DNA of 64,000 nucleotides, from contig NC_060258.1 in assembly GCF_921293095.1 (NCBI RefSeq), forward strand, positions 1 through 64,000, written 5' to 3'. Numbering within the stretch: the first letter of the stretch is position 1; each line of letters begins with the position of its first letter. Source of the stretch: Ischnura elegans (Eukaryota; Arthropoda; Insecta; Odonata; Coenagrionidae). Positions 2,871 through 64,000 of the stretch are shown here, one piece after another. A program made the position numbers and the translations under genes. The notes beneath the pieces were generated by a model. That model did not search any database and had not been told where the DNA came from. It worked only from the letters and a program-made list of their open reading frames with translations.

Positions 2871-4640
2871 TTAATTCAACTTTTTTAATCAAATCTTGAT
2901 CAAATGAACACCTATCCTTTCCCACTGTGATTTTTGTACCTTGAATAATCTAGACAAACTATTTTGTGTCCACACATTGGTATCAAATTCGATGTGGTTC
3001 AACAGGATTGAGCAGGTACTACATTTCCATCAAAATGGATTAAACCAACGAATGAAATAAAGCCTCTTGTCTCTTAGACCTTGAAACAATTATCGCTTCT
3101 TTCATCACGTTGTGTGGTCCTGAAACTGGAAATGAGCTAATATTGATCGTAAGATGCTATGAAAACTCTCATTAAGGCAAGCCGTATTTTTAAGTTCTTA
3201 TAAATTACGTAAGAAATTATATTTTATAACCAAAATGCGAGAAGAGGTATTTCCGAAAAATAAATAAATTCCTTATGGAATCGAAACGGAATGCTACATC
3301 GAGCTTTTCATCTTATTTTCAATTATACTTTAATCAATAATTGAGAATTATTTCAAGATTTACGTAATTCCAAGAATAATTCCAACTTTTATCTAATACA
3401 AGTGAGGGAAATTTTTCATTTTTTCAAATTTTCTGCTAGCTAAATTGATTGAAAATTAATGTTAAAATTTACAATTAGCACTGAATTCTTCGATTTTTCG
3501 GTCACTTAAGTAACTTTGTATTTCTCCAATGTTTCATTTGATAGCCAAGCTTCATCTTTGCCACAATATGGAAAGTCATTTAGGCAGTATTTTGATTGAA
3601 AATCTGTCAAAACCTAGTACTTGATTCCCAATTTCTCTGGTTTATTTGGCATGTACCGCATAAAAGTGCAGCGACCTTTTATTAAATAGAGCTATGCATT
3701 GGCTGCTATGCCGAAGTCTCCATCGAATTCACTATCTTGAACCTTGCAACTGGAATCGTCACTTCCATCACACGCAGATGGTTACAGAATAGGCGGACGG
3801 TCCTTGGACTGATGTTTCCTATTTACTTGCAGAATTCTCATATAACCCATAAAACAGCAACAACACAGTATTGTGTACGACATTCCCTAGCAGCCATTTG
3901 AATGACAGCGGTTCTTTTCTCTTGATGTCTTTGTCGACTCCTAACTTTCTTCAACTCGCTACTGACTTACCTGCTGAAAATTTTCCAACGAAAGTGAAAT
4001 ATGGTATACTCTTCTCCAACTGCATTGGAGAGAGAGCATTTCAAATGCATACAAATGGATCGAAAGCCAAAAGTAATGCTAATCGCCGTTCGAAAGGTAT
4101 GGACCCAACCTCCAACCGGGGGCTGATTCGCATATTTCAATAACTCACAGTTATGTTTCTTGTCATGTTCTTATGAACCTTTATTCAACAGTGAGCATAT
4201 GAATAAAGGGAGTGTAGACAGCACTTAAAACAATTGAAAAACAAATGAGAAAATATCATGACATTTCCCTTTCAATTTAAAAAATTAAACCCAAACGAAA
4301 ATAACCATTCCATTGTTAACATCACACTTTATAAAATAATAATAATCATTTAATTCAAGCAAACTTTTCAGACCTTACTATTAGAATTTACGAATGTTTA
4401 AATTTAAAGAAAGTAATGTACTTTAACATCACCTAATTTACATTAATGTCATTAATCAAATACAAAATTAACGTTGAAATAATATTCAAAATACAGTCAA
4501 TCACAGTACCTCTTTTGTTTTCTCAAATTCCTGCCTGTTCTAGTTTTGTATTCATTATCGATTAAATTGTTATAATTTGTTTGCATAGGGGTTATAGATT
4601 ATCTCAAATGGAATGAATTCCTTCGCAACATCCAATTCTC
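2871..4640. other. Intron sequence without recognisable genes
   Basis: This stretch is AT-rich. A 90-codon plus-strand open stretch at 3871-4143 contains HTNGSK, faintly like the TDGSK of LINE RNase H domains, but there is no further support. Nothing else is recognised. Confidence 0.4.
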
Positions 4641-7785: not shown

Positions 7786-7794
7786 CCCCTAGAT

Positions 7795-7974
7795 TAGGGT
7801 GTCCCAAAAAAACCGAAAGTTTGAAAGTTGAGGGGGCATTTCCATTTTCCTATGCGAATGCATGAAAAAACATCCCATAGAAATTTTCAGCTCAATCGGA
7901 CAATATTTGACCCTGCCGAAACGCATTCAAAGTTTGAATTTTAGAGTTTTCCAGATTTCATGCAATGTTGCCTA
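7795..7974 (+). repeat. Left 180-bp terminal inverted repeat
   Basis: Reading inwards it begins TAGGGTGTCCCAAAAAAACC and ends ATGCAATGTTGCCTA. It is matched without visible difference by the reverse complement of 10472-10651. Confidence 0.9.
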
Positions 7975-8091
7975 GCTCTAAGGGTCTTGGGGGATTTAAA
8001 ATTAGAAACCTCTGTAAGAAAATGCTCTCTTATTATTTTACTGTCATAATGCGGATACAAATGCACTGTGAACAACAAGAAATATGAAAAA

Positions 8092-8885
8092 CTAGAGTTT
8101 TTTGCCACTTTTTCCATGCATTTTCCTATGCCGCTTAACAACTAGTAACAGATGTTGCCTCTGAACCTCATCATTTGTCAATTTTTTCTTGACTAGAAAA
8201 TATTTTATTAATTGAACTCCTCTCTCTGCAGTATCATTAACAACCTTAAGGTGTTGAACTATAGATAGGCCCTTCTGATAGTCTACGTCACTTTTCCATG
8301 TGCACGGATCTCGCAGCAAAAATGCCGGCGAAATACCAATAATTTTGAAAAACTTCACAGAATTTTTCGAAGCGAAGTCAGCGAGAGTCAGCTCACTAAT
8401 AGGTCGATTAGGCGGAAGAGTAGCCCGAGGTGCGTCATCATCAGACCCCTCATTCTCTCTGATTGCTTCCGCAATGTCTCTTTTCTCGTCGTCAGAAACC
8501 ATTTCATCGAAGAGGGCCATACAATTCAAGTTTTCGAAAGTTATAACCATAGATGGTTACAAAACTTGGCCAAAGCTGCTGCGTAGTGAGGGTCTTTCTT
8601 CCGAGCAAGGACTTTAAGTAGCTCAAGATCCATTCTCGGAGCGCTCACTGCCAAGGGACAGATGTACCAATGTTTCATATATACAATTGCAATGAGGCAA
8701 CACAATTTGAATAAATTGTCACTGTCATGTGTCGACAAACGCAATTGCTTGCCAAAAATCCACGTTTTCAAAGCGTAGAGCTCCTTATTCATCCATCGTG
8801 ATTTGTCAGTTGGGCCTGGGGGGCGAACCACAGACTTCTCTTTCTTGGGAACCACACCACCCAACCACACTATACGCAACTCCAA
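8092..8885 (-). pseudogene. Transposase-like C-terminal block (frame-broken)
   Basis: Two overlapping minus-strand frames make up the C-terminus. The first (8885-8541) has DKSRWMNKELYALKTWIFGK and then VYMKHWYICPLAVSAPRMDL, ending KFCNHLWL. The second (8550-8092) continues with ENLNCMALFDEMVSDDEKR and the hallmark KVVNDTAERGVQLIKYFL, ending shortly after HLLLVVKRHRK. In this family, as remembered, NHLWY runs straight into the xxALxxFDxxVSxxEK segment, so a small shift near 8545 separates what was one frame. The C-terminal end appears complete. DNA-binding and catalytic residues cannot be assigned with confidence. Confidence 0.65.
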
Positions 8886-9172
8886 AAGTTCTTTGTAGTC
8901 GTCTCGAGGATGGTGGTTCTAAAATAATATGGGGCATAATTTTAAATACTAATACTGAGGATGGACTTTAAATCACCCTGAACATCCTGATATTTACCAT
9001 TTACGATCCTGCAGCTGAAGAATACAAAATTTGATAATGTCATCTACATTTGAAATATGCTTCAAACAGCCTCTTGTCGTCTTCGTTGCATTGGAAGTAA
9101 TTTCCCATCCCAGTGCACTGCTAAAGGAACTTGAGGGTGAAATTCTTACTGTCTCGGTCCTTTTATTCACTC

Positions 9173-9376
9173 TCATTCTATGTAGATGATATTTGGAGAA
9201 GATACTAAATGGATTTCATCCCCTTTAAAACTTAACGCAGATGCTGTCGCATTGGCGACAGCCTGGACTATCATAGACCCAGCGGCAGAGGACATCTGAG
9301 TCCGATCTAGGGAAGCAGTCACAAGGCTGTCGGACAGTATACTTACTCTACGGCGCTTTCCGGACCTTGTCCGCAT
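9173..9376 (-). pseudogene. Transposase-like middle block
   Basis: The minus-strand frame includes KRRRVSILSDSLVTASLDRT and continues QMSSAAGSMIVQAVANAT. It fits the LTPxLxAALDRTKVSDRxA signature that, from memory, follows the N-terminal block in the same family. The homologous segment fades after about 60 residues. The sequence from here to 8885 shows none of the central, presumably catalytic, part of the protein. Confidence 0.5.
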
Positions 9377-9648
9377 TTCAAATTCTGTAAAAGTAACAAA
9401 ATGTTATTTCTCCCTTTCTTCCGCCATATTGGTCACCCTTCCCGCACCCGGAAAAAATTACCTTCTTCCGAATCCGACGAGCTCGTCGTACTCTCCGCAG
9501 ATATCTGTCGAACGAGGTCCACTTTCTCATCCAATATTTCCTTTTCTTTCTCATGCCGTTTTTTCCTTTAAAAATCCTCTTCTTGAAGTCTCTTACGGTT
9601 TTCTAAACACTTACACCACTTTATATCAATACCCGCCATATATCCTTT

Positions 9649-10101
9649 TCAATCAGTTTTCATAGATATGTAAAACAGCTTGTCCTCCTCCACAGTAATG
9701 TTTGAAAGGGCGTCTTTGCAGCCGATGTCAAACAGACGGTCGAGCACTTTGCTGAATTCCTCTCTTGCGGACACTGACTTCTCACTAGTTTTATTTTTGT
9801 CTTTCCCAAGGGCACGGTAGTTCTCGTAAGCTGTCAGGAGCTTCTTAATGGCTGCTCGAACCTCCTGCGTAGGAATATTAGACTTTCCCCACACAGCAAG
9901 TAACTCTTTGATTGCAATCCTTGCTGCATCTGCCGCTGACATCGATCCTGGAGAACAGTGTAGGTTGTAAAAGAAAACTTTGAGAACTTCACGCAGCGTT
10001 GGGAGTTTACCATTGCCGGGCAAATGTTTATACTCATTACCCTCCAACCACGCACTTGTCGCACTTCGCATAACCGGCGTACCCTTCGACTTCACGTTCA
10101 T
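9649..10101 (-). pseudogene. Transposase-like N-terminal block
   Basis: This open frame of about 150 codons starts at the ATG at 10101. It begins MNVKSKGTPVMRSATSAWLE, then shows a GNEYKHLPG motif and PTLREVLKVFFYNLH. It ends with EEDKLFYI. From memory this is the N-terminal pattern of the unnamed family that shares the VNDTAERG motif (a W-x-GN-x-Y-x-x-LP segment, then a VLxVFFY segment, then a LFDIxxxDAL helix and EEDxxF). No zinc finger or catalytic acid is visible here. The frame closes soon after the EED motif, where family members continue, so either splicing or damage separates it from the next block. Confidence 0.6.
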
Positions 10102-10471
10102 TCTGGCCACCGCCGAAACAGCCTCGACCTCGAAACACACGACAATACCTCTCGTTCTCAGTTAGTGCACAACACTAAACTCCACGAGTGACTGATAGAC
10201 TAAGTCGGGATACTTTTAACATAAACAGAGCGATGTTCTGAAAGCGCATAGCATAACTCGAATCTCAACGCGACACGGCGCGCCGCGGCGGGGCAATATG
10301 CACTCGACTGGCGCCTGGCGGCCGCAACGGCGAGCGGGACTTGTAAACACACCGAGTTGTGGCTATGAAGCTCATTTTGACTCAAGTGTTGTTGTCAACG
10401 ACCATAGAGCTAGAGGAGATGGTTTGAACTTAAAATTGGTTGTTTTTTAAACACTCGAGCCTCCTGCAGGG

Positions 10472-10651
10472 TAGGCAACATTGCATGAAATCTGGAAAAC
10501 TCTAAAATTCAAACTTTGAATGCGTTTCGGCAGGGTCAAATATTGTCCGATTGAGCTGAAAATTTCTATGGGATGTTTTTTCATGCATTCGCATAGGAAA
10601 ATGGAAATGCCCCCTCAACTTTCAAACTTTCGGTTTTTTTGGGACACCCTA
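10472..10651 (-). repeat. Right 180-bp terminal inverted repeat
   Basis: It is the reverse complement of 7795-7974. It ends GGGACACCCTA immediately before the second copy of the 9-base target duplication. Confidence 0.9.
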
Positions 10652-10747
10652 CCCCTAGATACATAACTCAACAAGAAAGGAAAACAGTTGGCAAACATAA
10701 ATAAAATAATTACCTTGGAAGCCTTGGAAGGATAATAACATCTCTAA

Positions 10748-23331: not shown

Positions 23332-24318
23332 TCACCTACCGTCCTTCTTTATGACACGAACTAATGGTGAGATATACCGGGATGTGCTTCCTTCAATTAT
23401 CCCTTCCTTTAGCATTTCTCGTATTACTTGCCTTGCTTGACTCCGGAAGTTCAATGGAATTCCATACCCTCGTTGACAAAATTCTCCCTCCTTAATTGAA
23501 ATTTTATAATCGTACCCTTTTATCAATCCGGGCTTATCGCTGAATAAATCTCTGTATCGCATGATCATTCTCACCAATTCCTCCTTATTACTCCAGGGTA
23601 TTCCATCTATTTCCCTCACCGCTTCCTTAATGCGTTCTTCTAGGCTCCATTCTCGCTCTCCTTCCTCGCTCTCCACTTCTATCAGCCCCTGGACTTCATT
23701 TATGTGCCTTGAGCTTTGCTGCGAATCGTCTCGTAGCTCTCTGAAGGTGCAGGTAAATTTCTCTTCTCCATCGCTTAAAGATATATTTCCGGTCTCGTAT
23801 TCAATTTTCGCGGATAGTTGAGCCAACGTGTCCGTTCCAATGATGCAGGGTTTAATCAATTCCGGTACTACCTTACAGGCCATATTGATATTTAATTTTC
23901 CTATCTCGACGTTTGAATAGATCTGTTTTCTTATACGTCCACTCCTTTTCCCAATAGCTCCTGTTATCTGGATTCTATTTACTGGTAACTCTAAACCGTT
24001 CCTTAGTACGTCCTCATTTTCACGATAAAATTCTTCGCTAATGCATGTCAGCTCTGATCCCGTGTCTATCAACGCATTTACGATGACTCCTTCTATTTTG
24101 ATCTCAATTTCCGGGCACTTGACGATTCCCGGGGCATCCTTTCCTCTCTCCATCAGGTAGTCTCGGGGTGACTCAAAGACATTGCAGATCACTCCTCCTC
24201 CCGCGCAGTTTTCATTCTTCTCCTGTGTTACTATTATTTGTGTTCTATTTCTCCGTTGTCTGACCCGTTGTTCCTTCGGTAAGTCCCAAAATCGATCTCC
24301 TTTTTCGGCATTTGGCAT
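23332..24318 (-). CDS. Pol fragment: protease and start of reverse transcriptase (fossil)
   Basis: The frame lies just downstream of gag in a different reading frame, as is usual for Ty3 elements that use programmed read-through. An aspartic protease is clear (ALIDTGSELTCISEEFY, with the later hydrophobic CIIGTDTLAQL strand). Residues about 230-328 hold the N-terminal part of reverse transcriptase, with YDYKISIKEG, GYGIPLNFRSQARQVIREML and GIIEGSTSRYISPLVRVIKK. The rest of pol is not found in the element. Confidence 0.8.
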   Translation of the reverse strand: MPNAEKGDRFWDLPKEQRVRQRRNRTQIIVTQEKNENCAGGGVICNVFESPRDYLMERGKDAPGIVKCPEIEIKIEGVIVNALIDTGSELTCISEEFYRENEDVLRNGLELPVNRIQITGAIGKRSGRIRKQIYSNVEIGKLNINMACKVVPELIKPCIIGTDTLAQLSAKIEYETGNISLSDGEEKFTCTFRELRDDSQQSSRHINEVQGLIEVESEEGEREWSLEERIKEAVREIDGIPWSNKEELVRMIMRYRDLFSDKPGLIKGYDYKISIKEGEFCQRGYGIPLNFRSQARQVIREMLKEGIIEGSTSRYISPLVRVIKKDGR

Positions 24319-24347
24319 GATGGGACATTCTTCATACCCTGCCGCAC

Positions 24348-25907
24348 TCAGTTTTCCGACGCCGTCTTGCCTCCTTGGTTTAGTCCCTCACTGTTTTCCA
24401 CCACTAGTGAGTTTATGGGGTGTCTTTGTCCCGATCTGTATCCTTTCGTAACGTCATCGTGGCCTTGTTGTCGGTCGTCCCTCTCATTTTCCCTCTCGAA
24501 CCTTGGGTAATATCCTTGCGATTGATATGGTCTTCTCTCGTCCTGTCTCCTCGAAAACGGACGTCTCCCATATTGTTGAGGCTGCTGGTTTACCCATCTC
24601 GGTGTTCCTGCTTCCGGTCGCCGTTGGCTTCCGTGGTTTCTTTCCTCTTGCATTCCTTGGTTTTGATCAAACCATCTTCTTTGCCCCGTCTGTCCAGGAT
24701 GTCTATCTTCTCCCGGGATCCTGTCGTATCTCGCCAGCAAAGCTAAGAATTGTTGTAGCGAGCTTACGTTGTGGGATACCATCCCTACACTCACCTCCAC
24801 ACCGAAATGTTGCCTAAGCAGGTATACTAAGCTTTTGTCATCTATTGGTGGCCTCAACTCATTTGCTGCGCTGATTTTAGAAGTAGCGTATTCGACCCGT
24901 GTTTGCCTATCGTCATCCGGGTATTTTCCCGTTTCGAGGGCTCTCCTTACTTCTATCTGTCGCTCTTCCCCCCAGTATTGCTCCTGGAACATCGTCCGGA
25001 ATGTTGCGAGGTCTCCGTATAAATGCTGCGTCGCGGCAAACCATTCTCCAGCCTTCCCGATCATCCCTTGTCTCACTACACGTAGTGCGTCATCTTCTGT
25101 CAAGCGGTACATCTCCCAATACTCTCTCAGCTCCTGGAAGTATCTCATGGGTCTCGCATTGTGACTTCCATCGAATGAAGGGATCTTCATTTGCACCGCA
25201 CCTACGGCTGTTGGTGCTAGGGTTAGCCGAGCGCAATCCTCCTTGACACGTCTTGTAATTTCAATCATTACGCCCTCGTCCAGATCGGTCGCTTTGCTGA
25301 TAGACTGCTGATTAAATTTCGTCACCATCCTCTTCTCTGTTTCCTCGATCTTCTCCTTAATTTCCTCAATCCCGGCCTTCATGTCCGCTTGGCTTGTTTC
25401 CAACTCTTCAAATTTTTCGCCAGTCTCACCCAATTTTGTCCCTACTTCAGCGATTATTTCATCCATCTGGTAGCGTATTTCCTCCATTCTCTTCTCTTGC
25501 TCGGCGATTCTTCCACCATATTCTCGCTGAAACGCCGTTAACCCTTCGTTGATGCTCTTCATTGTCTCCTCCAACTTTTTGTCTCTTTCTTCTTGTTTGC
25601 TATCTCGCCTCTCCAGTTCTGCCTTTAACTGACTATATTGCCTCTCCTGTTCTTCCTTCAACTGACTATCTCGCCTTTCCTGTTCTTCCTTCAGCTGTCT
25701 TAATAGCACCCGTAGGTCATTGTATCCTTGCTCCTCCGTTTCCATCTCAAACTCATGGGTCTCTATATCTATCCCTTCTTTTATCAAAAGCGGTTTTAAA
25801 CGCTCCTGCAGCTCAAATTTCGCCCCTTGAATCGTCAATCCCCGATCCCTCAACAAATTTTGTAAATCCACCTTTTTCAGTTCGTAAAAGTTTTTCGTTC
25901 CCGCCAT
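24348..25907 (-). CDS. Gag-like protein of the LTR element, with N-terminal SAP-like domain
   Basis: An open frame of 519 codons starts MAGTKNFYELKKVDLQNLLR and continues GLTIQGAKFELQERL, a SAP-type helix-turn-helix fold (residues about 5-45). Residues about 60-200 are a strongly charged coiled coil with repeated LKEEQER units. A Gag core follows (about 245-390: KIPSFDGSHNARPMRYFQEL, then WFAATQHLYGDLATFRTMF, then QYWGEERQIEVRRALETGKY). The tail is rich in Arg, Gln and Gly and could bind nucleic acid, and no CCHC knuckle is visible. The protein would assemble the element's particle. A SAP domain suggests contact with DNA or chromatin, which is inference. Confidence 0.8.
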   Translation of the reverse strand: MAGTKNFYELKKVDLQNLLRDRGLTIQGAKFELQERLKPLLIKEGIDIETHEFEMETEEQGYNDLRVLLRQLKEEQERRDSQLKEEQERQYSQLKAELERRDSKQEERDKKLEETMKSINEGLTAFQREYGGRIAEQEKRMEEIRYQMDEIIAEVGTKLGETGEKFEELETSQADMKAGIEEIKEKIEETEKRMVTKFNQQSISKATDLDEGVMIEITRRVKEDCARLTLAPTAVGAVQMKIPSFDGSHNARPMRYFQELREYWEMYRLTEDDALRVVRQGMIGKAGEWFAATQHLYGDLATFRTMFQEQYWGEERQIEVRRALETGKYPDDDRQTRVEYATSKISAANELRPPIDDKSLVYLLRQHFGVEVSVGMVSHNVSSLQQFLALLARYDRIPGEDRHPGQTGQRRWFDQNQGMQEERNHGSQRRPEAGTPRWVNQQPQQYGRRPFSRRQDERRPYQSQGYYPRFERENERDDRQQGHDDVTKGYRSGQRHPINSLVVENSEGLNQGGKTASEN

Positions 25908-25983
25908 TTTGAATTCCCGCTCTCTACGACGCGACTCGTTCCTCAGGCGTTCCGTGGTCTCGATCCTCTCGAGAAGTCGGGCC

Positions 25984-26001
25984 CCACACGTTGCGGCGCC
26001 A
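25984..26001 (-). promoter_or_regulatory. Primer-binding site
   Basis: Three bases after the 5' LTR the minus strand reads TGGCGCCGCAACGTGTGG. It begins with the TGGCGCC typical of tRNA-primed retroelements. The exact tRNA cannot be named from this alone. Confidence 0.65.
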
Positions 26002-26004
26002 AAA

Positions 26005-26507
26005 TGTAACGTTTTGTTTAATTTCCACTTCTCTTACTTAACAAATGATTTCATATAACACTTTATAAAGAAACTTTACAATTTAAAACTCGTGAGCATA
26101 AACAACATCAACAAGCCGCCATGACTATTATAATCCCATTTGTACTACCCGTACTGCCACTCACTGAACCGCTGCCAAGGACTACACCAGTGGGGATCTT
26201 GAGTTCTGCCGTATCCCTTTTTCTCCGGTCTCTTTCTCTCTCGTAGGCGCCTGCTTTTGGTCTGCGTCCTCTTCTTCTTTCTGCCGATCCCGAATTCTTC
26301 CGTATTTCTTCCTCCGGTCTCTCAATACACCAGTACTTTAATTTATCTCCCAATCTTCTACAACACGTCTATCTCTTCCTTCTCTCCATACACGACTCCC
26401 TTTTTCTTTTGCGTCCCTCACTACCATTATTGCCTCCCATTATTGCTTCCTCACTACTATTGTTAATTTTAATTTATTTAAATAAACAACATGGCAGCTT
26501 GTTTACA
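26005..26507 (-). repeat. 5' LTR (minus-strand orientation)
   Basis: This 503-base LTR lies upstream of gag in the sense of the element. It should hold the promoter. An AATAAA-like motif near its minus-strand start (TTGTTTATTTAAATAAAT) is seen, but exact U3/R/U5 limits cannot be drawn. Confidence 0.9.
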
Positions 26508-50820: not shown

Positions 50821-51335
50821 AAAATAAAAGAAGGCCTAATAGCAGAGAGAGGAGGCAGGGAAGGAGAGACTAACGTCCCCGCATGTCGTACGAATCGAAG
50901 AACTAACGCTATATTTTTGGGAACGCAAAATAAGAGCGATTATCAGACGAAGGGAAGGCAGGAAGCTTGAAAAAATAAATGAAAGTCAAAGAGCAAAGGA
51001 AGGGGGCAGGGGAGGAGTGACTCATGATTTTGAGGTTCCCGTATGTCGTATGCAGCGAAAAAGCAACGCTATATTCGTGGGAACGTGAAATATGAGCGGT
51101 TCGCAGACTAAGGGAAGGCAGGACGATTGAAAAATAAAAGAAGGCCTAAGAGCAGAGGGAGGGGGAAGTAGAGGAGAGACTCGAGAGCTCGGGGTTTCCG
51201 TAGGTCATATGCGTCGAAAAACAAATGCTATATTCGTGGGAACGTGAAATATGAGCGCTTCCCAGACGAAAGGAAAGCAGGACGATTAAAAAAAATAAAG
51301 CCAAAAAGCGAGGGAAGGTGGCAGAGGAGGAGTGA
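50821..51335 (+). repeat. Satellite-like tandem array, about 3.3 copies of a 154-158-bp unit
   Basis: Units begin near 50821, 50975, 51133 and 51291 with AAATAAA followed by a purine-rich run (AGCAGAGGGAGG-like). They then share GTATGTCGTATGC-like, AACGCTATATTCGTGGGAAC and GTGAAATATGAGCG. Units differ by many substitutions. The last unit is cut short after GGAGTGACTCGGGATCTC. Confidence 0.85.
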
Positions 51336-53194
51336 CTCGGGATCTCAAATCTATTTTTGTTTCGTTGGAAGGGGGCAGAGCGGGAGGACGTAGGGGAATA
51401 TGTGGGTGCGTGGAAGGGGTTCCCCTAGACTGGTACAAAATATTTATTTTATTTTATGCAATGGTTTTGAGGTTTATTGGGTTTTTCATGTCCATTTTGT
51501 ACAAGTACCTACGCATAATACTCACGTGTTTTGAGTGAAAAGCAAATTGGGTGAATATCAATTTAAAAATTAATGAGATACGAGAACACATTTAACACGT
51601 CGACCTTAAAAAACATTAGTGATTCATTTTATTTATATGTCAGCGTCAGAAACATGGTCTGATTATGTAGCAATTCTATATGGCGCATCTACAGTTTTAT
51701 CTACTACTCTACAGGTTTGGGTGTTAGACGATTTTCGTCAGATATTCTGGAATTATGCTCCAACGAAACCACTTGTTGAATGATCTCGTCACTAACGTCA
51801 TATTTTCTCTCTTAGCATTTGTATTTCGATATAAAACAATTGGCGAGAATTACAAACATTCGCTTTTTTCACTGTAACAATGGTAGTAGATCTACAACCA
51901 AAAGTAATTCCAGGGTGGCTGTGAACCGAAGTGCTTTCTTCGTGAGGCATTGGTTCTTAGTCCTTTTACTAACTCGTTCTTTGCAATAGTTAAACATTTC
52001 TTCCCACGGCTCCGCAACCCTTTGGCCAAGACTAACGCATCATATACATAAGAGAACGGAATTTATTCAGCTGGAAATAGAAATATATTTGAAAATAAGA
52101 GCCTCATTCCCTGAGGATGTCATCCGCATTTGATGATGCATCTTATTTTATTATAAGAAAATGGATTATTTGGAAAATCAAGCTGGTCTTTTTTCTAGAG
52201 CATGGTACACCAAAGGTACTAATAATCTCACTTATAGCGGATTCAATTTATTGTCGAATTTAAAGAATTTATCGTGTATAAAAAGAACACATTAGCAACA
52301 TTTCACTCGTAATAATGAAAGTACTCTTGAAGATGGAACTTAAATTAGTTTTTAATTGGTTTAAGATTCCAAAGGTATACTTCTACATAGGCCTGAAAAA
52401 TTCAGAAAGAATAATTTTATTACGCACGTACGGCAAATTTGATTCATTTATTTCATTTTCCCGCAGAATGTCAGTTGCAACATTCATAAGAAACATAAGC
52501 AAATAATATCAAGTAGACCTCACTATTCACCATCAGGTATTATCAACAAACTTAAAAATAATGTATTTTTTATCACATCGTGATTTTAATTATAATCAAT
52601 GTTGAAAAATTCATACAAAATTAGATAAAGGGATAAGTTAAACAATAGATTGAACTGGGGGAAAATAGGATAAAATTGTCACTTTAATCCTGCTAATAGT
52701 TCCAGTTTCAAAAATTCTTATTGACCAGGTTCTACGATTGAAGTTTCGATGGCATTTAAAATGCATCTTTTGTAATCCTAGCCGGCCTACCGAAATAATT
52801 TATCTCGTCACCTTAACAGAATAACAATAGTCAATTTACTTATATCATCAATTAAGCGAGGAACTAGTAGAAATGAGTTTTTAGAAAGTAATACGGATTG
52901 AGACGTAATTTTTTCCGTCATAGGTTATCGGGCGATTGACTTCCAGGTATAGGGTCTAAGCTCAAGACTTCAAGGTCATCGGTATTCACGGGGGAGAAAT
53001 GGAGCGGTGCCCTCGTTCCCTATGAATAACATCAATACATAGAGGGGTCCGCTAGTGAGTCTCAAACACAATGGCTTCATTCCCTTCCAGCAGTCGTAGG
53101 CTCTCTGCGTCTCAGGAATACAGTTTATAGTGTGCAGCAGCAGTGCAGAAGGTGATTTTGAAAGAGCCGTACGGAGTAAAAACCAACAGAACAA

Positions 53195-62220: not shown

Positions 62221-63884
62221 TTACTCCGCATGAGTCTGCAAATGACGGACAAGGTCGCTCCTAGAAGGCAAAGACTTTTCACATTCACCGCAGGAATAAG
62301 GTTTCTCCTTTGTATGAATCATCATGTGAAGGACAAGGTTACCCTTTTGAGAGAGAGACTTTTCACACTCATTGCATGAATATGGTTTCTCCTTCGTATG
62401 AGTCCGAATGTGACGGATAAGGTCAGCCTTTTGAGAGAAAGACTTTTCACATTCACCGCCCGATTAAGGTTTCTCCTTCGTATGAGTCCGAATGTGATCG
62501 ATAAGGTGAGTCTTTCGAGAGAAAGACTTCTCGCATTCACCGCAGGAATAAGGTTTCTCCTTCGTATGAGTCCGAATGTGAAGGACAAGGTGACTCTTTT
62601 GAGAGAAAGATTTTTCACATTTAACGCAGGAATAAGGTTTCTCATTCGTATGAGTGCGAATGTGTTTGACAAGGTTACTCTTTTGAGAGAAAGACTTTTC
62701 ACATTCACTGCAGGAATAAGGTTTCTCCTTCGTATGAGTCCGAATGTGATAGATAAGGTGACTCTTTTGATAGAAAGACTTTTCACATTCACCGCAGGAA
62801 TAAGGTTTATCCTTCGTATGAGTGCGAATGTGTTTGACAAGGTTACTCTTTTGAGAGAAAGACTTTTCACATTCACTGCAGGAATAAGGTTTCTCCTTCG
62901 TATGAGTGCGAACGTGATTGACAAGGTGACTCTTTCGAGAGAAAGACTTTTCACATTCACCGCAAGAATAAGGTTTCTCCTTCGTATGAGTCCGAATGTG
63001 TTGGACAAGGTTACTCTTTTTAGAGAAAGACTTCTCACATTCAATGCAGGAATAAGGTTTCTCCTTCGTATGAGTGCGTACGTGACGGACAAGGCAATGC
63101 TTATTAGAAAATGACTGCTCACATTCATTGCAGGAATAAGGTTTCTTTGCTGAGTGTGAACTATCTGTGCATGATGTCCCATCTACAGTGAAGCTTTTCC
63201 TCACTTCCCTCACTTTTTTCTTCTCCCTTGTTCCTCCAAAGTTTGCCTTAAATAGCCCATTTCCGTTTTGTCTCATCCCTTTTCTTTTACATATCAGCTT
63301 ATTTAAACTCTTGGAGGAGGTGGGCCGATGAGAACAATTTGTTTCTCCTCCTGAACCAAGAGTTTTGAGGGCCAAATCATTCCCAATTGTCAAATTAGCA
63401 TGAATATCCACATTGCTAGAACCAAAATGAATTTTGAGGTGCTTTATGAGATCATTCTCGGCATTGAATGCATCTCCACAGTCGAAGCAACGATTTGAAT
63501 TGTCATTTGATATGGCACGCTTCCCAGGATTTTTTATCATGCTAGTACTCATCTCTTTGTTTTCTCGCATGACTGCCTCATTGGAAGTCTTTCTACTGTC
63601 AGTGACCCTGAAAAACTTTATGCTGTTTGGATTGTCACAACTACTCGTTTCCCCAGCAAGAGTCATTGTTGCTCTATTTCCTATGATTTTAGACACATGC
63701 TTAGATTTTGAATGAAGCTGTCCATCATCAGGAATTGAGCATGAAGTTATTTTATCAGAAAGATGGGCACCACATTTTTCAATGTCTTTGCCCATCACCT
63801 TCCTTTCTTTCTTTAAATTTGATGCTGTATTTTTTGGTTCAAGGAGAGCAAACGAAGCTGAAGCTCTTTCAGAAGCTGGGAGAT
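62221..63884 (-). CDS. C2H2 zinc-finger protein, last exon, with an in-frame stop inside the finger array
   Basis: A minus-strand acceptor (TTCTTTTCTAG) precedes the exon at 63884. The frame enters in phase with [19 protein letters not shown]. One isolated finger ([21 protein letters not shown]) precedes a basic region and eight tandem fingers of the type [21 protein letters not shown] joined by TKEKPYS linkers. The frame then meets TAA at 62464-62466. Three more fingers follow in the same frame to a natural stop at 62221-62223 (QTHAE end). At the break the usual TATTCCTGC reads TAATCGGGC, so the Tyr codon becomes a stop and the first Cys of finger nine becomes Gly. Such arrays bind DNA in the nucleus. 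The N-terminal domain (perhaps ZAD) must lie in exons beyond the window. It is either a natural short isoform, a degrading gene or an assembly error. Confidence 0.85.
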
Positions 63885-64000
63885 CTAGAAAAGAAATTCA
63901 CTTTTTAAAATAGGTTGAGTTAGACATGTAATCTATGATTCGTTGACCTAATTTATAAAAACCATTAGACAGATATCAAAGTTGCAACTTCAAACGATCT
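63885..64000 (-). other. Intron of the zinc-finger gene
   Basis: This sequence upstream (on the minus strand) of the acceptor at 63885-63886 continues past the window edge. The pyrimidine tract is TTTCTTTTCTAG. Confidence 0.6.

Follow-up and report, generated by a model that had tools for sequence, protein, structure and literature searches.

The first 64,000 nucleotides of Ischnura elegans contig NC_060258.1 (the window) contain, at positions 7795-10651, a 2,857-bp internally deleted copy of a cut-and-paste DNA transposon, designated family A. We consider, with a rough probability of 0.7, that this element is non-autonomous and belongs to a divergent group of hAT-like DDE transposons. Its terminal inverted repeats (TIRs) are identical at 180 of 180 bases, with the first mismatch at position 181, and repeat detection follows the pairing further, to a length of 207 nt with 94% identity. 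An exact 9-bp target site duplication (TSD), CCCCTAGAT, flanks the element on both sides. These results bear out the original prediction, made from the letters alone, of a DNA transposon with pristine ends, 180-bp TIRs free of mismatches, and an exact 9-base duplication.

Using the protein of a full-length relative (family B) as query, tblastn places the minus-strand protein blocks in order at 10029-9619, 9322-9092, 8906-8547, and 8394-8098. Of B exon 1, the window copy preserves residues 21-156, 236-312, and 479-599; it also has the last exon and lacks residues 313-478. It retains HWDGK, a motif absent from the original description, as well as SRWM and NDTAERG; the second-Asp and CxxH motifs are gone along with the centre. 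The ordered blocks with SRWM and VVNDTAERGV, and the missing central part of the protein, had both been described beforehand and agree with the tblastn matches and motif positions, the absence of the centre being a trait of the amplified 2.85-kb form.

Family A copies across the genome

The genome searched comprises 1.72 Gb in 110 contigs. The left end gave 299 first-look candidates, of which the best 40 were scored, all with at least 98% identity. Twenty copies were fetched with 6-kb stretches from the top of the TIR-identity ranking, so the sample leans towards young copies; L017 and L021 were passed over in this selection. Together with the window copy and L017, 22 copies were inspected. 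An exact 9-bp TSD is present in all 21 copies having both ends, indicating that the duplication in the window is not due to chance, and a TSD of 4-8 or 10-12 bp was found in none of the copies examined (0/20 aligned, window copy included). This measurement, of the kind suggested in the original prediction, returned a single duplication length in the 21 copies. The right end of L045 is not in the fetched stretch, hence this copy stands outside the TSD count; for L046 the BLAST match ends 3 bases short of the element end, which was set by hand. The target duplications lean to a loosely palindromic AYSNNNSRT, with C or T at position 2 in 20/20 and A or G at position 8 in 17/20.

Lengths are similar, 19 of the 20 aligned copies measuring 2,835-2,870 bp and the remaining one (L033) 2,517 bp, and pairwise identity reaches 99.8%. 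A 901-bp internal piece used as query returned 114 candidates, and the 40 that were scored are all 96-100% identical. Owing to the similar lengths, the high identity, and the many near-identical copies of the internal piece, we conclude that the 2.85-kb deleted form was itself amplified. A deletion private to the window copy was considered and rejected, as 19/20 aligned copies share the 2.85-kb size. End repeats differ by 0.8-1.3% between copies and the interior by 2.2%; within single copies, 0-7 positions distinguish the left from the right end, and in 5/20 there is no difference. The window copy belongs to the more diverged part of the set, with a mean identity of 97.25%. Its proposed recent insertion finds only moderate support, the nearest of 19 copies being 97.8% identical while other pairs reach the maximum given above. 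A smaller deletion derivative of family A, the 1,216-bp L017, has both ends and a 9-bp TSD.

Relatives that keep the catalytic centre

Uncharacterised arthropod and cnidarian proteins bear HWDGK, DTTxxNTG, RWM, and NDxAERG, and the second-Asp motif of such proteins led to family B. Searched as a pattern with one mismatch allowed, this motif gave 22 genome matches versus 2 for a reversed control. Eighteen of these matches belong to family B, and one (L065) shows no relative. The family B element is 3.5 kb long, with 2.65-kb versions in L052 and L053. L058 carries two frames, of 657 and 132 codons, and a donor- and acceptor-like pair between them may represent a splice. A protein search with B, in which 112 of 873 candidates were scored, revealed three B places that carry the 657-codon frame with no stop in the matched stretch, and brought family E to the surface.

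The one E copy fetched with both ends (L066) measures 3,728 bp and has open coding blocks, a 9-bp TSD, and ends with 3 mismatches over their first 341 positions. Inward of its end repeats lies a further 137-bp inverted match at 99% (reverse-complement 571-707 and 3405-3541), inside the C-terminal coding block, so that part of the gene end is duplicated inversely near the other end.

Within family A, the centre is retained in L068 and L069, both of which have a coding block interrupted by a stop. L073 is a deletion derivative that keeps the centre and has lost the part before it, its N-terminal start being joined to a point just after HWDGK. In a search with the L068 centre, scoring covered 150 of 163 candidates; these 150 include nine A-type places at least 81% identical to the query (the query included), five of which match only part of it and four of which have stops there. 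A further 18 places are E-type, at 56-60% identity, and 17 of them have no stop in the matched stretch. The A centre is thus rare next to the deleted A copies. No intact A gene was found among the three A-type places read beyond the centre (L068, L069, and L073), six of the nine having been read in the centre only, and such a gene may exist. Full-length relatives with open frames and a central domain, anticipated in the original prediction, were found in the related families B and E, and the A-type centre copies are broken or deleted where read further.

Transposase motifs and predicted fold

Among families A-H, six (A, B, C, D, E, and F) have an unaltered HWDGK, which reads HLDGK in H and KCDGK in G, and [FCY]DTT is present in the A copies with a centre and in B, C, D, E, F, G, and H. 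The CxxH after the second Asp appears as CRHH in B, E, and F, CQHH in L068, CHHH in H, and CWYH in D, and is lost in L069 (FRHH) and G (SRHY). RWM occurs in A, B, D, E, F, and H, with WWM in L069, and NDxAER in A, B, E, F, and H. Families C, D, and G are represented by partial or decayed sequences; the ends of D were not found, L063 and L064 aligning over most of the fetched length. N-terminal fragments were misaligned in alignment A1 and were excluded from alignments A2 and A3. The centre-bearing relatives place CxxH between the second Asp and the last Glu, a signature shared with hAT, and PMC10045372 gives D-D-CxxH as common to hAT, MuDR, P, Kolobok, and Dada.

The catalytic core has an RNase H topology by structure prediction. 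Hermes (hAT) is its most compact long structural match, with middling scores tied with other folds, and the match to ISCth4, a transposase of IS256 type, is loose (root-mean-square deviation 6.1-7.1).

No Pfam model hit the element, and PF05699 gave no hit up to E 10 to the window blocks or to both L058 frames. Pfam recognised none of the 23 alignment members, giving chance-level rows only, and neither the window N-block nor the 657-codon frame of L058 gave a BED hit up to E 10. The Pfam scans contain no row for the Mutator-like element (MULE) transposase domain, SWIM, FLYWCH, PHD, THAP, or the P-type transposase domain. Sequence search of the PDB with one protein gave 0 hits and the profile one chance-like hit (E 0.48), NCBIfam a single row far below cut-off (E 0.1), and tblastn with two protein queries no relatives in viral contigs. 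Six motif strings, HWDGK combined with 'transposase', and the end strings were not found in the literature searched, nor was a name for the uncharacterised arthropod and cnidarian proteins or a family name for the element, which may possibly bear one elsewhere. The view that these proteins are uncharacterised and without a named superfamily agrees with this, as does the suggested profile search of the C-terminal block, which gave no transposase family in Pfam.

Ends and target duplications of related families

A and E have homologous ends over about 180 bp (score 144 versus a maximum of 39 in 500 shuffles) and share a run of 25 identical bases, ACAATATTTGACCCTGCCGAAACGC. Family B begins TAGGGTGTCCCAA as A does, and its inverted repeats agree over the outer 13-14 bp only. 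As its left end scores 44 (shuffle maximum 31) and its right end 30 (shuffle maximum 42), B shares little beyond the outermost end bases.

The TSD of B is shorter. Among eight copies, three have an exact 8-bp TSD, three have a short left flank compatible only with 8 bp, L053 has none, and L059 is without a left end. The 8 bp of hAT thus recurs in B, and A (21/21) and E (one copy) have 9 bp. PMC10368747 gives the Hermes target pattern as nTnnnnAn. Four of six B targets fit it, namely ATGCACAT and GTGCATAT among the exact TSDs, where ATGAGGGG does not, and ATGTACAT and GTGGACAC among the 8-bp-compatible ones, where CCGAGCAC does not. For MULEs, PMC6446971 describes TSDs of 8-11 bp, 9 in Rehavkus, and long TIRs; the 9 bp of A and E fall within this range.

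Superfamily placement and source of transposase

That the element fits no single superfamily cleanly, as first suggested, stands in part. The D-D-CxxH pattern of the predicted RNase H-like core, the Hermes match, and the 8-bp duplications of B, four of six of which fit the Hermes target, lean hAT-like, leaving 9 bp as a departure, and the TAGGG ends fit YARNG, the hAT end pattern. Several points differ from hAT: A and E make 9-bp duplications, their end repeats are long (180 bp in A, 341 bp in E), PF05699 and BED are undetectable, and the ISCth4 match favours MULE over hAT. Canonical hATs abound in the same genome, where 150 of 1,723 PF05699 candidates were scored and all 150 pass the cut-off. 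None of the 150 comes closer than 4.9 kb to any of 57 A, B, and E places drawn from the searches with the internal piece, the B protein, and the L068 centre. This separation, the silence of Pfam on all 23 alignment members, and the 9-bp versus 8-bp TSDs would suit a separate unnamed DDE superfamily, one that is sister to hAT, P, MULE, and Kolobok and does not branch within hAT; in view of the hAT-like ends, the B targets, and the compactness of the Hermes match, we regard it as rather unlikely. An equally tentative formulation places families A-H in a DDE superfamily of their own, distinct from every named one. Its stagger would have moved between 8 and 9 bp, with the outermost ends TAGGGTGKCCCAA and the palindromic target preference kept, and it would have been overlooked since no public profile recognises it. 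The 9-bp duplications and long TIRs of A resemble a MULE (Rehavkus), and the ISCth4 match slightly raised the odds of this reading; it nevertheless remains improbable, given the looseness of that match, the lack of MULE, SWIM, FLYWCH, and PHD domains in the Pfam scans, and a sister family B with 8-bp duplications and short outer repeats. A P element is weakened by the missing THAP and P-type transposase domains, which are the marks of that group; P and Kolobok chains are not among the structural rows listed, which says nothing against either.

A related question is whether the E transposase mobilises family A across families, in place of A's own full-length partner. The 9-bp TSDs and homologous ends common to A and E, the 17/18 E places free of stops versus stops in 4/9 A-type centre places, and the broken or deleted state of the three A-type places read further are consistent with such cross-mobilisation. 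Identity between the E and A centres is no more than 56-60%, however, and an intact A gene may lie among the six places read in the centre only or beyond the 150 candidates scored; because of those six places the odds were lowered a little, and we hold cross-mobilisation to be a minority possibility.

Proposed mechanism and significance

For a divergent hAT-like element, a transposase supplied in trans, from a full-length A partner or from family E, would bind the long inverted repeats of family A and excise the element, which would then be joined across a 9-bp staggered target, the loosely palindromic AYSNNNSRT. The enzyme would be a DDE/D transposase with an RNase H-like core, having its first Asp in HWDGK and its second in [FC]DTT; after these would come CxxH, RWM in a helical region, and, close to the C-terminus, the last Glu. 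The enzyme would work most like the hAT transposase Hermes, outside the reach of the Pfam hAT model. hAT transposases have a C-terminal catalytic Glu, and by analogy the Glu of NDxAERG is proposed as the third catalytic residue, with the Glu of RELLEL as the alternative.

If this is correct, one genome holds many cut-and-paste transposon families whose transposase escapes Pfam models, and pipelines resting on Pfam-type models would leave such families unnamed. Two related families with the same outermost ends and 8- versus 9-bp staggers would also offer a natural comparison, bearing on how a DDE transposase complex spaces the two cuts it makes.

Features of the element and of the window

Table 1. 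Parts of the family A element and its flanks, in window coordinates.
Feature	Position	Strand	Basis or remark
Left TSD CCCCTAGAT, 9 bp	7786-7794	.	Read from sequence, copy comparison
Left TIR, 180 bp, starts TAGGGTGTCCC	7795-7974	+	Homologous to family E end
Last coding block, transposase relic, 154 codons	8092-8556	-	tblastn with family B
VVNDTAERGV motif	8215-8244	-	Its Glu is the putative third catalytic residue
Coding block with SRWM (8790-8801)	8541-8918	-	Match 8906-8547 to family B exon 1 residues 479-599
Stretch between blocks, catalytic centre gone	8919-9091	-	B residues 313-478 (second Asp and CxxH) absent; kept in L068, L069
Coding block homologous to B residues 236-312, with first catalytic motif HWDGK (9101-9115)	9092-9322	-	tblastn, motif comparison
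N-terminal coding block, 170 codons	9649-10161	-	Match 10029-9619 to B residues 21-156
Right TIR, 180 bp	10472-10651	-	Repeat comparison
Right TSD CCCCTAGAT, 9 bp	10652-10660	.	Read from sequence, copy comparison

Elsewhere in the window, two overlapping retroelement frames of 561 and 351 codons lie on the minus strand at 23332-26033. The longer reads as gag-like by position, with a weak SAP match below cut-off, and the shorter encodes a retroviral-type aspartyl protease. A tandem array at 50878-51338 has a 159-bp unit in 2.9 copies. C2H2 zinc fingers are encoded by a 477-codon frame at 62464-63897, also on the minus strand, which overlies an 84-bp tandem repeat (62270-63146) of 10.4 copies with 87% matches.
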